Of a DNA stretch of 64,000 nt, positions 54,103 through 59,371 are shown piece after piece. This DNA is from Jannaschia donghaensis (GTDB lineage: Bacteria; Pseudomonadota; Alphaproteobacteria; Rhodobacterales; Rhodobacteraceae): assembly GCF_001403795.1 (NCBI RefSeq), contig NZ_CXSU01000011.1, positions 622,247 to 686,246 of the forward strand, written 5' to 3'. How positions within the stretch are numbered: the stretch's first letter is position 1; each line of letters begins with the position of its first letter. The notes below the pieces were generated by a model. The model had not been told where the DNA came from. It did not search any database and was given only the letters and a program-made list of their open reading frames with translations. A program made the translations under genes and the position numbers.

Positions 54103-55146
54103 TCAGATGATCTCGTCTTCGTCGAACAGCGGGTCGTCGGCCATCTGCGCGGTCACGTCGTCCATCGTCGTTTCGGCGCGGGCGACGTTCGCCACACGGG
54201 CAAGGTGGAAGACAGCGTCGCCTTCGTTGACGACGGGCATGACCGCGCGGCCGACGATGATACCGTCGAAGGGGGCCGTGATTTCCTGTTCCTCGCGCCC
54301 GAAGGGATCGGAGACGGCGGCGAGGACCGCGCCCGCCTCCACCACGTCGCCGTCGGCGCGGTAGGTGCGCAGCAGGCCGCCCGCCGGCGCGCGCAGCCAT
54401 TTGGACGAGGTGCAGGTCTGCGGCGCCCCCTTGGCCGCCGCGATGCCGCGCCCGCCGATCATCCCCTTGTAGCGCAAGATGCGCAGGATGCCGGCCACGC
54501 CAACGCGCACCGAATATTCGTCGAAGCGCAGCCCCTCGCCCGCCTCGAACAGCAGGATGTCTTTGCCCATGGCCTTGGCCGCGCCGCGCAGGCTGCCGTC
54601 GCGCAGGGGCGATTGCAGGATGACCGGCGCGCCGAAGACCTGTGCCAGATCGGCGGTGACCGGATTATCGGGCGAGATACGGATTTGCGGCAGGTTGGTG
54701 CGGTGGACCGCCGCCGAATGCAGGTCGATGCCCAGATCGCAGCGCGCCACGATCTCGGTCAGGAACAGATGGGCCAGGCGGGACGCGAGCGATCCGCCCG
54801 GCGTGCCCGGAAAGCAGCGGTTGAGGTCGCGCCGGTCCGGCAGATAGCGCGAGTGGTTCATGAAGCCGAAGGCATTCACGATCGGGATGACGATCAGCGT
54901 GCCCCGGACAGACCGAAGGTTCGCCGTGCGCAGAAGGCGGCGCACGATCTCGACGCCGATCACCTCGTCCCCGTGGATGCCCGCGCTGACGAAGATGGTG
55001 GGGCCGTCGGTCTTGCCGTGGAAAACCTTGACCGACATCGACACAGGCGTGTGATCCGACAGATGGCTGACGGGCAGGTCGACGGTAGCAGAGGTGCCCG
55101 CGGGAATGGCCGTCCCGCCGATTTCAAAGGCGGAACGGCGGACCAT
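54103..55146 (-). CDS. Succinylglutamate desuccinylase/aspartoacylase-family zinc hydrolase
   Basis: M14-like zinc enzyme of the AstE/aspartoacylase family, which hydrolyses N-acyl amino acids or C-terminal residues. 347 residues. Zinc ligands H58 and E61 (GIHGDE) and H143 (DLHSA) are present, with R110 in DLNRCFPG as the substrate-carboxylate arginine. A biotinyl-lipoyl-like C-terminal half contains DGDVVEAGAVLA and APFDGIIVGR. Its ATG shares one base with the rimK stop (TGATG), so translation is coupled to the ATP-grasp ligase. Confidence 0.88.
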   Translation of the reverse strand: MVRRSAFEIGGTAIPAGTSATVDLPVSHLSDHTPVSMSVKVFHGKTDGPTIFVSAGIHGDEVIGVEIVRRLLRTANLRSVRGTLIVIPIVNAFGFMNHSRYLPDRRDLNRCFPGTPGGSLASRLAHLFLTEIVARCDLGIDLHSAAVHRTNLPQIRISPDNPVTADLAQVFGAPVILQSPLRDGSLRGAAKAMGKDILLFEAGEGLRFDEYSVRVGVAGILRILRYKGMIGGRGIAAAKGAPQTCTSSKWLRAPAGGLLRTYRADGDVVEAGAVLAAVSDPFGREEQEITAPFDGIIVGRAVMPVVNEGDAVFHLARVANVARAETTMDDVTAQMADDPLFDEDEII

Positions 55147-56051
55147 CAGCCCTTGCCCTTGGTCTTGGTGGCATTCGGCTTGGCGACTTTTTCGAGGTGT
55201 TCGATGATCTTGCCTGCAATGTCGATCCCGGTGGCCTTTTCCACGCCTTCAAGGCCGGGTGAGGAATTGACCTCCATCACGACGGCCCCGTGGTTGGCGC
55301 GCAGCATGTCGACGCCGCAAACCTCCAACCCCATGGATTTGGCGGAACGGACGGCTGTGGAGCGTTCTTCGGGCGTAAGTTTGATAACCTGCGCACTGCC
55401 GCCGCGGTGCAGGTTGGAGCGGAATTCGCCTTCGGCCCCGGTGCGCTTCATCGCGGCCACGACCTTGCCGCCGACCACAAGGGCGCGGATGTCGGTGCCG
55501 CCAGCTTCCTTAATGAATTCCTGGATCAGGATGTTGGTGTTGGTGGCGCGGAACGCCTCGATCACGGATTTGGCGGATCGGTCGGTGTCGGCCAGGACGA
55601 CGCCCAGGCCTTGCGTGCCTTCCAGCAGCTTGATGACGAGGGGAGCGCCGCCGGCGAGCTTAAGGACTTCCTCCGTCTGCTTTGGGTCGTGGGCGAAGGT
55701 GGTCACGGGCAGGCCGATACCGTCGCGGGCCAGAAGCTGCATGGAGCGCAGCTTGTCGCGCGACCGCCCGATGGCGACGGATTCGTTGAGGGGGAAAACA
55801 CCCATCATCTCGAACTGGCGCAGGACGGCGAGACCGTAGAACGTGACGGAGGCGCCGATGCGGGGGATGACGGCGTCGAAGCCTTCGAGTTTCTCGCCGT
55901 TGTAGAAGATCTCGGGGCGGCGCGACGCGATGTTCATGTAGCAGCGCAGCGTGTTGATGATGTGCAGCTCGTGGCCGCGCGCCTCGGCGGCTTCCTTGAG
56001 GCGTTTGTGAGAGTAGAGGTTCGGATTGCGGGCCATCATCGCGATTTTCAT
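55146..56051 (-). CDS. rimK: RimK-type ATP-grasp amino-acid ligase
   Basis: ATP-grasp enzyme related to RimK, which adds glutamates to the C-terminus of ribosomal protein S6. 301 residues, matching E. coli RimK in length. ATP-grasp signatures: [36 protein letters not shown] and [14 protein letters not shown] with metal-binding residues. The C-terminus is a Lys-rich tail. Coupled to a retropepsin-like gene (4 bp overlap) and a zinc deacylase (1 bp). Peptide-adding or small-molecule ligase alternatives cannot be excluded. Confidence 0.88.
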
Positions 56052-56557
56052 AAGACTGCCTTTCCACGCCGCACGGGCGCGATTGGCCGGGCTTCGCGCC
56101 CGGCGATGTTCACGCGACGGGTATGCACCGCGACGTTATGGGCCGAGAGGGCCGTGCGCCCGACGATCATCGCCAGACGCATGTTGCTTCGGTCGGTCAG
56201 CGACAGGTCGATGCGCCATTTCCGGCCGGCGATCAGCAGGTTGGTCCGGATGATGACCCGGTCCTGCGGCACGCCCGAGGTATTTTTGATCGACCGGACG
56301 TCATGAACCGGGCATTCCGCCTGAATACGGTCCTGGGTCGCTTCGTGGCGGACGCGAAACCGCACCCAGGGCGTGCCGTCGCGGTCGAATTGTTCAATCC
56401 GGCTGGCGTGAAGGGCGGATGTGCGTGCGCCGGTGTCGATCTTGGCCTTGAGGTCGGACAGGCCCAGGTCGGGCAGAGAGACGGTTTCCGTCCAGCCGAC
56501 GATGAGCAGGTTCTTCGGCTGCATTCGGGTGTTCCGATTGTTGAATCGCGCCGACAA
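56048..56557 (-). CDS. Retropepsin-like aspartic protease (RimB/DUF785 type)
   Basis: Small pepsin-like fold protein of the RimB/ATP-dependent-zinc-protease group that accompanies RimK genes. 169 residues. The catalytic motif is [13 protein letters not shown] (D41-T42-G43), with a flap region ([17 protein letters not shown]) and a second conserved stretch [12 protein letters not shown]. The start could also be the ATG at residue 12. A role in trimming peptides made by RimK is established in Pseudomonas; here it is inference from neighbours. Confidence 0.85.
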
Positions 56558-56596: not shown

Positions 56597-57784
56597 TCAG
56601 TCGTAGACGCGCTGGTCGTCGATGACCTTGCCGTCGTTGGGTAATGTGTCGACGCGTTCGACCCGGCCCTTGAGCTTGAGGACTTCGGCGACGGAGGCGG
56701 ACCAGGCCGCCTCGTCCCCGCCATCGGCCTCCACCGCGACGTGCATCGCATCCATTTCTCCGTCGCGGGTGACGGTAACGCGGGCGGCGCGGATTTCCGG
56801 GTGGCGGGCGACCAGATCGGCCACCTGTTCGGGGCGCACGAACATACCCTTGATCTTGGCGGTCTGGTCGGCGCGGCCCATCCAGCCCTTGATGCGCATG
56901 TTTGTGCGCCCGCAGGGCGAGGTGCCGGGGAGGAGCGCGCTGAGGTCGCCGGTGGCGAAGCGGATCAGCGGGTAATCGGGGTTGAGGGTGGTGACGACGA
57001 CTTCGCCCACCTCGCCCGGGGCGACCGGGTCGCCGGTGCCGGGGCGCACGATTTCGAGGATGACGCCTTCGTCGACGATCATGCCTTCCATCGCGTCGCT
57101 TTCGTAGGCGATGTTGCCCAGATCGGCGGTGGCGTAGCATTGCAGCGTCGCGATGCCCCGATCGGCGTATTCCGTGCGAAGGGACGGGAACAGGGCCCCG
57201 CCGCCGACGGCCGCACGGGTGAAGGCCAGCGTTTCGCCCATGTCATCGGCGCGGTCGAGAATGACCTTCAGATAGTCGGGCGTGCCGGCATAGGCGGTGC
57301 AGCCGATGTCGCGGGCGGCGCGGACCTGCAGGTCGGTCTGGCCGGTGCCGGCGGGCAGCACGCGGGCCCCGACGGCGCGCGCGCCACTCTCGAAGATCAT
57401 GCCGGCGGGGGTGAGGTGATAGCCGAAGCAATTCTGCACCGTATCCGATTTGCCGATGCCGCAAGCGTGCAGGAAGCGGCCCATGCGCCACCAGTCGTGC
57501 GTGATGCCGCCGGGTTCATAGATCGGGCCGGGCGACTGGAAGACATGGGCGATGTCGCCGATGGGAACCCCGCCGAAGGGCGGCGTCCTGGCTTGCCATT
57601 CCGACAGCTGCGATTTGCGTAGAACGGGAAGTTTGGCCAGATCGGAGAGGTCGTTCAGCCCGGCGTCCGGCAAGCAATTGTCCGCCCCTGTTCGGACGAG
57701 GGCGAGCTGGCTGCGCAGCGCCGCCAGCTGTGCCGCAGCACGTTCGTCATCGGACCGGGTTTCCAGGTCGTCGTAATGCGTCAT
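56597..57784 (-). CDS. Phenylacetate-CoA ligase-family AMP-forming enzyme
   Basis: Adenylate-forming ligase of the PaaK/coenzyme F390 synthetase group. 395 residues, shorter than phenylacetate-CoA ligase (~430). Adenylation motifs YPLIRFATGDLS and GRADQTAKIKGMFVRP are clear, with a C-terminal lysine in LPNDGKVIDDQR. The N-terminal glycine-rich nucleotide loop of typical PaaK is not obvious (QSPGPIYEPGG region instead). Starts with a 4 bp overlap to the App1-like gene, downstream of a Liv transporter. Substrate unknown. Confidence 0.82.
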   Translation of the reverse strand: MTHYDDLETRSDDERAAAQLAALRSQLALVRTGADNCLPDAGLNDLSDLAKLPVLRKSQLSEWQARTPPFGGVPIGDIAHVFQSPGPIYEPGGITHDWWRMGRFLHACGIGKSDTVQNCFGYHLTPAGMIFESGARAVGARVLPAGTGQTDLQVRAARDIGCTAYAGTPDYLKVILDRADDMGETLAFTRAAVGGGALFPSLRTEYADRGIATLQCYATADLGNIAYESDAMEGMIVDEGVILEIVRPGTGDPVAPGEVGEVVVTTLNPDYPLIRFATGDLSALLPGTSPCGRTNMRIKGWMGRADQTAKIKGMFVRPEQVADLVARHPEIRAARVTVTRDGEMDAMHVAVEADGGDEAAWSASVAEVLKLKGRVERVDTLPNDGKVIDDQRVYD

Positions 57785-58767
57785 TCAAATCCCCAATGTC
57801 GTCTGGCCCCATCGAAATCGGGACCGTGATAGCATGGCACGCCCATCGCCTCGATTTCCGCGATCGCGGCGGCATCGTCGGCCCCCACACCGGGCGCGGG
57901 TTCGCGCAGGGCGACGCCTTTGATGCGGCCCGGATTGCGCTGAACGGTATCGCGGTAGACGACGGCGTCCTTTTGCCCCGAGTCGCCCATCAGATAGGCG
58001 GGCAGGTTCGGGTTCACCGCAAGCAGCGTGTCGATGGCCGCGCCCTTATGGGTGCCGTGGCTGGCACCCACGCCCTCTTCGGTGAGGCCCAGATCGCGCA
58101 GGAACATCGGCCCGCGCGGCACGCCTTCGGCGGCGAACAGATCTTCGAGGAAATCGTGCAGGTTCCATGGCGAGGAGGAGACGTAGAACACCGGATTGCG
58201 TCCGCCCGCGACCATCGCCTCCATCAACGCGGTGGCGTCGTCGTGGGCCTGCCGGGTCAGGGCGGAGCCCGTGAATGTGGTCCAGAGGTTGCGCGCCAGC
58301 GAATGCGCACCGGTTTGGATCATCGTGTCGTCGATGTCCGAGATGATCATGTGGTTGGCCGACGGGTCGGGGATGCGGGCGTGAAACGGCTCCGGCTCCT
58401 GCCCGTCGATCTTCAGGCGGATCGTGGTCCAGCCGGGATCGAAGTCGCCGGGCACCATCAGGCGGATATAGCCTTCGGCATCCGACAGGCCGGTGACGGA
58501 CCCGTCTTCGGTGGTGACGGTGACGCCCTGAACTTCGTCGGTGACGAAGAGGTTCACCATCTGACGCAGGTTCATCCACTTGGATTGCTCCGCGTCCGGC
58601 TGGACCCGGCGCAGATGCGACAGGACGCGCCCGCGCAGCAGGACGCCGTCGGGGGTGGCGTAACCGAGGTATGAATCGAGGACCGGTTTGTCGTCTTCGG
58701 AATCCCCGATCCGTTCCAGACCTGATTCGACAAGACGCGCTGCGCGCAGGGCAAGAGGCTTCAGCAT
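57781..58767 (-). CDS. App1-type HAD phosphatase (DUF2183 family)
   Basis: HAD-type phosphatase related to yeast App1 phosphatidate phosphatase. 328 residues. Phospho-aspartate motif D144-I-D146-D-T148, then FYVSSSPWNLHDFL and GDSGQKDAVVY, which complete the HAD core. The N-terminal ~130 residues include a beta-sandwich-like domain (RGRVLSHLRR, VTVTTEDGSVTGLSDAEGYI). The start was set at MLKPLALRAA; upstream frame is low-complexity Arg-rich shadow. Overlaps the CoA-ligase gene by 4 bp. Lipid substrate is inferred only. Confidence 0.85.
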   Translation of the reverse strand: MLKPLALRAARLVESGLERIGDSEDDKPVLDSYLGYATPDGVLLRGRVLSHLRRVQPDAEQSKWMNLRQMVNLFVTDEVQGVTVTTEDGSVTGLSDAEGYIRLMVPGDFDPGWTTIRLKIDGQEPEPFHARIPDPSANHMIISDIDDTMIQTGAHSLARNLWTTFTGSALTRQAHDDATALMEAMVAGGRNPVFYVSSSPWNLHDFLEDLFAAEGVPRGPMFLRDLGLTEEGVGASHGTHKGAAIDTLLAVNPNLPAYLMGDSGQKDAVVYRDTVQRNPGRIKGVALREPAPGVGADDAAAIAEIEAMGVPCYHGPDFDGARRHWGFE

Positions 58768-58825
58768 GATGATCTCCGGGTTGGGTCGGGGATCAACGGG
58801 CGAGGCGGAATCTGGTTGCGTTGGG

Positions 58826-59371
58826 TCAAAGCGCGGGCTCCCGCAGGGGATAGCTGGCGAGCACGTCGTAGATCGGGCCCTGCGGCGTAAGGACCGAGGA
58901 CCAGAGCGCGCAGAGGCGCGCGGTTTCGGACGCCAGATCCGGCGGGCCGAGACGTTCGAGCGCGGGGCCGATCCCGTCGCCTGCCGCATCACCGCGGGTA
59001 AAGCGGCGCAAGGTGACATGCGGGCGGAAGCGATCGCGGGGCAGGGCGATGCCCGATGTCCTGGCGGCCGAACGGATGGCCGTGTGGAGCGCGGTCAGGC
59101 CGGGTGTGGCGTCGAGGTCGAGGGCGAACATCCGGGGCGGCGTGCCGATGGCGGAATAGCTGCGTGGGGCAAGGGCGGCGGCAGGCAGGGGCTTGGCCTC
59201 CAACGCCTCGTGCAGGGCGTCCAGCCGATCTTCGGGTTGATCGTCGAGAAAGGCGAGGGTGACATGGAGGTCGTCGGCGTCCACCGGTCGCCCGCCGCGC
59301 ACAGCCGATTGTGCCCGCATCAGCGGGGTGATCCACGGCTCGGGCAGGGGAAGGGCGACGAAGGTTCTCAT
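58826..59371 (-). CDS. thpR: RNA 2',3'-cyclic phosphodiesterase (LigT/ThpR)
   Basis: 2H-superfamily phosphodiesterase, able to open 2',3'-cyclic phosphates. 181 residues. The two signature HxT motifs are H36-V-T38 and H118-V-T120, and the N-terminus MRTFVALPLPE is typical. Isolated between livF and the App1-like gene on the same strand. Physiological substrate in bacteria is unknown. Confidence 0.9.
   Translation of the reverse strand: MRTFVALPLPEPWITPLMRAQSAVRGGRPVDADDLHVTLAFLDDQPEDRLDALHEALEAKPLPAAALAPRSYSAIGTPPRMFALDLDATPGLTALHTAIRSAARTSGIALPRDRFRPHVTLRRFTRGDAAGDGIGPALERLGPPDLASETARLCALWSSVLTPQGPIYDVLASYPLREPAL

Follow-up and report, generated by a model that had tools for sequence, protein, structure and literature searches.

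We identified a conserved trio of genes in a 64,000-nucleotide stretch of the Jannaschia donghaensis genome (contig NZ_CXSU01000011.1, positions 622,247 to 686,246; this whole stretch is called the window below, and positions are given within it). The three genes, which overlap on the minus strand, encode a RimB-type retropepsin-like protease, the glutamate ligase RimK and an AstE/aspartoacylase-fold zinc hydrolase that we call E. We provide evidence that E is tied almost strictly to RimK and the protease, both within the class and across phyla. Thus, we propose, with a probability of roughly 0.45, that the trio (RimBKE) could act as one enzyme module for the reversible formation of alpha-linked glutamate chains, likely in an ionic or osmotic setting. 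A conserved third enzyme alongside RimK and RimB also offers a handle on the role of RimK outside Escherichia and Pseudomonas.

Co-occurrence and spread of the three genes

In a sample of 144 genomes of the class, an E orthologue (a match at an E-value of 1e-50 or better) was found in 19, with identity of at least 40% in 18 and of 32% in one, G130; beyond these, identity lay at about 30%, short pieces aside. RimK scored above its curated cut-off in 18 of the 19 genomes with E, compared with 27 of 144 overall and 9 of the 125 without an E orthologue (Fisher P 2e-15), and a PF05618 protease was present in all 18 genomes carrying both E and RimK (31/144 overall). Of these 18 genomes, 13 (the window's and 12 others) have the whole trio side by side, and in five E lies separate from RimK; in one genome (G111) the protease and RimK share a 497-residue open frame that adjoins E. 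As an internal control, we examined 11 AstE-like loci that are more distant (L021 to L031), each with some 1.5 kb of flank on either side; neither RimK nor the protease occurs in any of them. Additionally, a genome with neither RimK nor the protease (G067) shows only two pieces of E, residues 2-46 and 144-185, and therefore lacks the first zinc motif.

A scan of genome contigs, from which we took the best 80 loci of a longer list, extended this pattern. The trio stands together in 39 of these loci, in the order protease-RimK-E in 36; RimK and E occur together in 8 more, and E alone in 33 (contig ends truncate several loci). Going by record title, the loci belong to alpha- and gammaproteobacteria, Campylobacterota, Nitrospirota and Desulfobacterota, although some come from metagenome bins and could be mislabelled, and the trio is also present on a plasmid of the cyanobacterium Acaryochloris. 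A Phaeobacter inhibens plasmid likewise bears all three genes. The 50 named genomes behind these 80 loci were searched for RimK, ribosomal protein S6 and transporters, with 25 loci (mostly bins or short contigs) and five roseobacters left out. RimK exceeded its cut-off in all 50; as these include genomes in which the genes are unlinked, E accompanies RimK even where the two lie apart. The preliminary description of this locus had taken the third enzyme to make it more than a standard rimBK pair, and this is supported: conservation reaches far beyond close relatives, so that the absence of such conservation, named there as a refuting outcome, did not come about. Since adjacency is maintained across families and phyla, a chance arrangement is very unlikely, and we reject it on the adjacency counts, the co-occurrence statistics and the 0/11 control.

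In 12 of the 50 named genomes the RimK match lies inside an open frame of 463-519 residues. The two such loci inspected (L289 and L290) hold a single open reading frame matching both protease and RimK, that is, a RimBK fusion, and in two genomes (G131 and G042) the protease and RimK matches have equal open frames. In a 67-row tree of RimK, the linked, unlinked and E-free proteins cluster in part without forming a single clade, with 12 label changes against a shuffled mean of 21.1; one E-free row (L170) falls below the RimK cut-off, L288 was omitted as a copy of the window's RimK, and long branches blur the details. Ten plasmid loci were opened: eight carry the trio, one is unannotated, and one is haloarchaeal and has neither RimK nor protease beside E. 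The protease was confirmed by Pfam in all five tested of the eight plasmid trio loci.

Haloarchaeal plasmid copies of E (about 28-34% identity) were not taken as orthologues, and the one such locus inspected, from Haloferax larsenii, has no adjacent RimK or protease. The idea that E is phage-borne was dropped, as only 6 of 50,697 phage records match and none exceeds 32% identity. In six roseobacters (L003, L035, L036, L040, L042 and L057) E lies directly downstream of a gene that, by eye, resembles anthranilate synthase (TrpE); in the four of these that were searched, RimK is located elsewhere, in a long, fusion-sized frame.

Identity of the three enzymes

The ligase of the window is, by sequence, RimK, and we do not thereby claim S6 ligation. 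It scores 444 bits against the equivalog-level NCBIfam model PRK10446/NF007764 (cut-off 331), both Pfam families PF08443 (230 bits) and PF18030 (154 bits) lie above their cut-offs, and the solved RimK-type ligases 7qyr, 7qys, 5zct and 4iwx align over nearly its full length. Cyanophycin synthetase models reach only 70-73 bits on the window protein against cut-offs of 850-877, so it is not a CphA-type ligase. Its basic C-terminal tail, TKTKGKG (window 55146-55170), is close to the ARTKGKG of 7qyr.

The protease is a PF05618 member (108 bits, above cut-off) with a DTGA motif and a modelled retropepsin fold. Its KIDTGART block is invariant or near-invariant among 10 aligned sequences, the window's included, and its AlphaFold model (predicted local distance difference test (pLDDT) score 86) finds its best folds in 2pma (DUF785) and RloA (9g58/9g59), with a weaker match to HIV protease (E about 5e-4). 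We call it RimB-type only, because it scores 111.9 bits against the NCBIfam RimB equivalog NF052261, below the cut-off of 200. No signal peptide is visible at its N-terminus by eye, an inspection made without a predictor. The earlier suggestion that the protease trims a glutamate tail has experimental precedent in RimB of Pseudomonas and the RimBK fusion of Desulfotalea (PMC11957791), and in RloA, which acts on polyglutamate substrates in vitro (PMC12239564). At one locus (L074, 4055-4771) a second PF05618-like gene lies on the opposite strand directly past E, at the position that the second protease gene occupies in L277.

E matches Pfam PF24827 at 142.8 bits (cut-off 25). It was rejected as AstE, AspA or DoeB proper, for which its NCBIfam scores are 26 against 306, 33 against 180 and 96 against 403 bits, respectively. 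In an alignment of 17 sequences, the window's included, H58, E61, H143, E201 and a DLNR motif are invariant; the HxxE and DxH motifs and E201, all without variation, presumably form the metal site and catalytic centre. The closest fold to its model (pLDDT 89.6) is 3cdx, an uncharacterised protein (Z 35.0), followed by the deacetylase DoeB (6twm, Z 34.2), while the cyanophycin dipeptide hydrolase CphZ (8eip) aligns over 298 residues at Z 28.3 (root-mean-square deviation 3.2). Carboxypeptidases rank lower, at Z 17-19, among them CCP5 (17.8 over 217 residues), as do true AstE (17.5-18.7) and rat aspartoacylase (17.2). The E proteins of several relatives share a conserved acidic C-terminal tail (DEDEII or similar; window 54103-54122), which has low confidence in the model.

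Ribosomal protein S6 as an unlikely target

RimK is named after the addition of glutamate to the C-terminus of S6. In the window's genome, S6 ends in -RRERR and so lacks an acidic acceptor C-terminus; it ends in -RR in 16 of the 17 named Rhodobacterales genomes with E (the other, G166, ends in -RRSRD), and in -KKAN or similar in four E-bearing Campylobacterota genomes. Replacing the penultimate acidic residue of RpsF by lysine (D139K) stops glutamylation by Pseudomonas and Escherichia coli RimK in vitro (PMC4741518). Because of the -RRERR tail, and because a lysine near the end of S6 abolishes the known RimK modification, S6 is an unlikely target here, and the case for S6 as the protein that RimK modifies is weakened; as the obvious target, S6 was rejected on its tails.

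S6 tails, taken from open frames found by phmmer with start codons unchecked, could be counted for 49 of the 50 named genomes and, in the class sample, for 60 of 61; the S6 frames of G171 and G006 reach no stop codon within the sequence examined. S6 ends in glutamate in 6 of 18 class genomes with E and RimK, 2 of 9 with RimK and no E, 8 of 33 without RimK (34 of 117 such genomes were sampled; the count is 8/32 without G022, whose S6 frame contains a 33-residue masked run) and 7 of 49 named genomes with E. Thus, S6 tails track neither RimK nor E in this sample. Among genomes with E, the tail does not end in an acidic residue in 10 of 18 from the class and 37 of 49 named ones. Some bacteria are described as having an S6 without C-terminal glutamate, and RimK may have further functions (PMC11957791). 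Since S6 lacks a suitable end, the target of the module in this organism becomes a testable question.

A proposed glutamate cycle and its alternatives

In Pseudomonas, RimK makes poly-alpha-glutamate, and RimB cleaves polyglutamate and stimulates RimK (PMC11957791). Combined with an AstE-fold hydrolase, these activities have the three-step logic of cyanophycin turnover, where the polymer is synthesised by CphA and broken down to dipeptides by CphB, which CphZ then hydrolyses (PMC12661447), and for this reason we propose a cycle in which glutamate chains are made and unmade. RimK would make oligo- or poly-alpha-glutamate, either unattached or bound to some acceptor that is not the S6 tail; the RimB-type protease would cleave these chains and may also stimulate RimK, as its Pseudomonas counterpart does; and E would hydrolyse short glutamate peptides, or the last residues, to free glutamate. 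The build-and-trim logic put forward in the preliminary description fits the enzyme classes and gains support. In our view, E may at least as probably hydrolyse oligoglutamate as release an acyl end. The physiological setting would probably be a response to ionic or osmotic change.

Evidence for this setting comes from the genes near RimK. Set against whole-genome counts, the 50 named genomes hold 6 cases of CorA no more than 3 kb from RimK, with 0.11 expected (among them weak matches: a CorA with an internal stop in G173 and a short partial one in G170), 4 of MgtE no more than 3 kb away, with 0.16 expected (one of which, in G186, is beside a second RimK, not the E-linked one), and at least 7 of MscS within 5 kb, with 0.81 expected. 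The expectations are Poisson estimates that allow one or two RimK genes per genome, and an alternative CorA estimate, with slightly different counts and a wider distance, agrees. Seven of the eight annotated plasmid trio loci lie near MscS, magnesium transporter, CorA/ZntB or ectoine-pathway genes: MscS in six (four of them closely related Salinivibrio), a magnesium transporter in five, and a CorA-family gene and ZntB in one each. This enrichment suggests ionic or osmotic adaptation. We take the KEGG orthology (KO) entries K05844 and K03284 to be rimK and corA. In a study of aquatic genomes, a glutamate-modification KO set containing K05844, together with K03284 (Mg2+ uptake) and a mechanosensitive channel, is commoner in brackish genomes than in their marine relatives (PMC10219603), which fits the pattern of CorA and MscS neighbours.

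Several observations weigh against this proposal. E is accessory, because G130, whose E has 32% identity, is the sole E genome of the 19 without RimK, and because nine RimK genomes lack E, making it a dispensable partner in 9 of 27. S6 ends in aspartate or glutamate in 8 of 18 class genomes and 12 of 49 named genomes with E, and the RimK of the window's genome scores as a full S6-ligase equivalog. As 3cdx and DoeB outrank CphZ, an acyl-amino-acid substrate is structurally at least as good a fit for E. The neighbour counts, besides the doubtful CorA and MgtE cases given with them, come from families that were picked after being noticed and then counted on the same genomes; their signal is carried by 10 of the 50 genomes, and CorA and MscS often move as a pair. 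In the window itself, none of the seven neighbouring genes scanned is osmotic or Mg2+ related.

A narrower form of the proposal, which we regard as doubtful, is that in most carriers RimBKE serves as an intracellular poly-alpha-glutamate buffer and not as a ribosome modifier. RimK would polymerise glutamate, a main counter-ion osmolyte, when osmolarity or ion load changes, and RimB and E would release it again, alongside the Mg2+ transporters and mechanosensitive channels that are encoded nearby in some carriers. If true, such a buffer would give bacteria a second polymer cycle of the cyanophycin type.

The fold of E opens a different possibility, rather unlikely in our judgement: RimK may make an N-acyl or acyl-amino-acid-glutamate metabolite, with E deacylating the precursor or product, as aspartoacylase does with N-acetyl-aspartate, and the protease cutting the amide. 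E has the aspartoacylase/DoeB fold with an intact metal-site motif and is closer to DoeB than to CphZ, S6 is an unlikely acceptor here, and animal relatives of RimK make N-acetyl-aspartyl-glutamate (NAAG) and beta-citrylglutamate. However, its score places the window's RimK with the bacterial S6 ligases, 7qyr and 7qys match it end to end, and the characterised proteases of the family considered here (RimB, RimBK and RloA) cut polyglutamate (PMC11957791 and PMC12239564).

We also consider it unlikely that the module reversibly modifies the tail of S6 or another protein, with RimK adding glutamates, RimB cutting them and E acting as a carboxypeptidase-like deglutamylase that takes off the final residues, much as cytosolic carboxypeptidases do in the tubulin glutamylation cycle. 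The basic S6 ends argue against this (-RR in nearly all named Rhodobacterales, -KKAN-like in the four Campylobacterota). E does share a carboxypeptidase-type fold with CCP5, which we take to be a deglutamylase, at a Z level with true AstE and rat aspartoacylase, but CCP5 ranks far below the group formed by 3cdx, DoeB and CphZ (Z 28-35). The precedent for such a role is RpsF of Pseudomonas, on which RimK and RimB act in this way (PMC11957791 and PMC4741518).

A reading of E as a passenger, a deacylase of amino-acid catabolism that is carried on the RimBK transcript for no functional reason, is highly improbable. In its favour, E is apart from RimK in five of 18 class genomes, 33 of the best 80 loci show no RimK or protease nearby in the DNA examined (contig ends truncate some of them), and no E orthologue is present in nine RimK genomes. 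Against it, co-occurrence is nearly strict in one direction (50/50, even when unlinked), none of the 11 distant AstE-like genes shows the link, and G067, without RimK and protease, shows only fragments of E.

Further observations on the neighbourhoods

On a Vibrio nigripulchritudo plasmid typed as conjugative (L296), ectoine synthase and aspartate kinase genes lie a few genes from a RimK-E-protease-MscS run. Cassettes of CorA/ZntB and MscS, sometimes with MgtE, are placed beside or within the rim locus in L282, L253, L257, L275 and the Vibrio europaeus plasmid L292; in L282 the genes run RimK-CorA-MscS-protease, and E is encoded at another site of that genome. GGDEF or GGDEF-EAL genes occur near the trio at eight loci (L258, L265, L279, L281, L292, L294, L297 and L299), called by Pfam for L279 and by similarity or record annotation for the others. 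These neighbours may parallel the control by cyclic di-GMP that RimA exerts in Pseudomonas.

Relation to known systems

The trio resembles the rimABK/rimBK genes of Pseudomonas in RimK type, protease family and gene adjacency, and differs in the addition of E, in having no RimA-like EAL gene among the scanned neighbours, in the basic S6 tail and in a protease that scores 112 bits against the RimB cut-off of 200. RimBK fusions, reported from Rhodobacterales and Flavobacteriales (PMC11957791), combine the same two activities by family, and some E-bearing roseobacters carry fusion-type frames, whereas in the window the protease and RimK are separate genes coupled to E. The trio parallels the cyanophycin CphA-CphB-CphZ system in its proposed logic, with an ATP-grasp enzyme to make the polymer, a peptidase to cut it and an enzyme of AstE fold to hydrolyse dipeptides. 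However, the RimBKE ligase and peptidase come from other families and would yield polyglutamate instead of an Asp-Arg polymer, so this likeness is one of analogy only.

The Rlo system (RloA protease, RloB and the ATP-grasp protein RloC), which is tied to osmotic stress (PMC12239564), likewise places a member of the protease superfamily beside an ATP-grasp protein. In contrast to Rlo, no signal peptide is seen by eye on the window protease, the seven scanned neighbours include no RloB-like transglutaminase-like membrane protein, and the ligase is a true RimK and not RloC. E has the fold and metal-binding motif of AstE, aspartoacylase and DoeB, but falls below the cut-off of each family, and no ast or doe genes occur among the scanned neighbours.

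The RimBK pair is already known; no description of the trio with E was seen among the open-access papers listed, most subscription papers lying outside the search. No open-access paper searched pairs 'RimK' with 'succinylglutamate desuccinylase', and those pairing 'RimK' with 'aspartoacylase' concern, by title, only animal tissue, cells, human disease, metabolic-flux methods and the human genome. A 2009 survey of amidoligases by Iyer and colleagues might mention such neighbourhoods, and an earlier prediction of the trio is thus possible.

Layout of the locus

Features of the RimBKE locus in the window
Feature	Position	Strand	Length and basis
RimB-type retropepsin-like aspartic protease	56048..56524	minus	158 aa from ATG; PF05618, KIDTGART, fold model
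RimK, alpha-L-glutamate ligase (ATP-grasp)	55146..56051	minus	301 aa; NF007764 equivalog, solved RimK-type structures
AstE/aspartoacylase-fold zinc hydrolase E	54103..55146	minus	347 aa; PF24827, invariant metal-site motif
4-bp stop/start overlap ATGA, protease to RimK	56048..56051	minus	read from sequence
1-bp overlap TGATG, RimK to E	55146	minus	read from sequence

The arrangement first described for this locus, a retropepsin-like protease, RimK and an AstE-like hydrolase as one minus-strand set with overlaps of 4 bp and 1 bp, was confirmed by Pfam, where all three proteins exceed their cut-offs, and by direct reading of both junctions. The 1-bp RimK/E overlap is also present at other loci, for example L004 and L006. 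For the protease, only the start is revised: position 56557 is a TTG 11 codons upstream of the ATG at 56524, the conserved region starts 8-10 residues past this ATG, and the 10-sequence alignment, in which N-termini vary, gives no reason to prefer the extension. A promoter scan returned 0 sites, and a Pfam scan of the seven neighbouring window genes found no EAL domain, RloB-like gene or ast or doe genes. Same-strand genes upstream (window 56597-59371) also have mutual overlaps and may be cotranscribed with the trio; their products include a weak AMP-binding match below cut-off, an APP1-type phosphatase domain and a LigT-like phosphoesterase.

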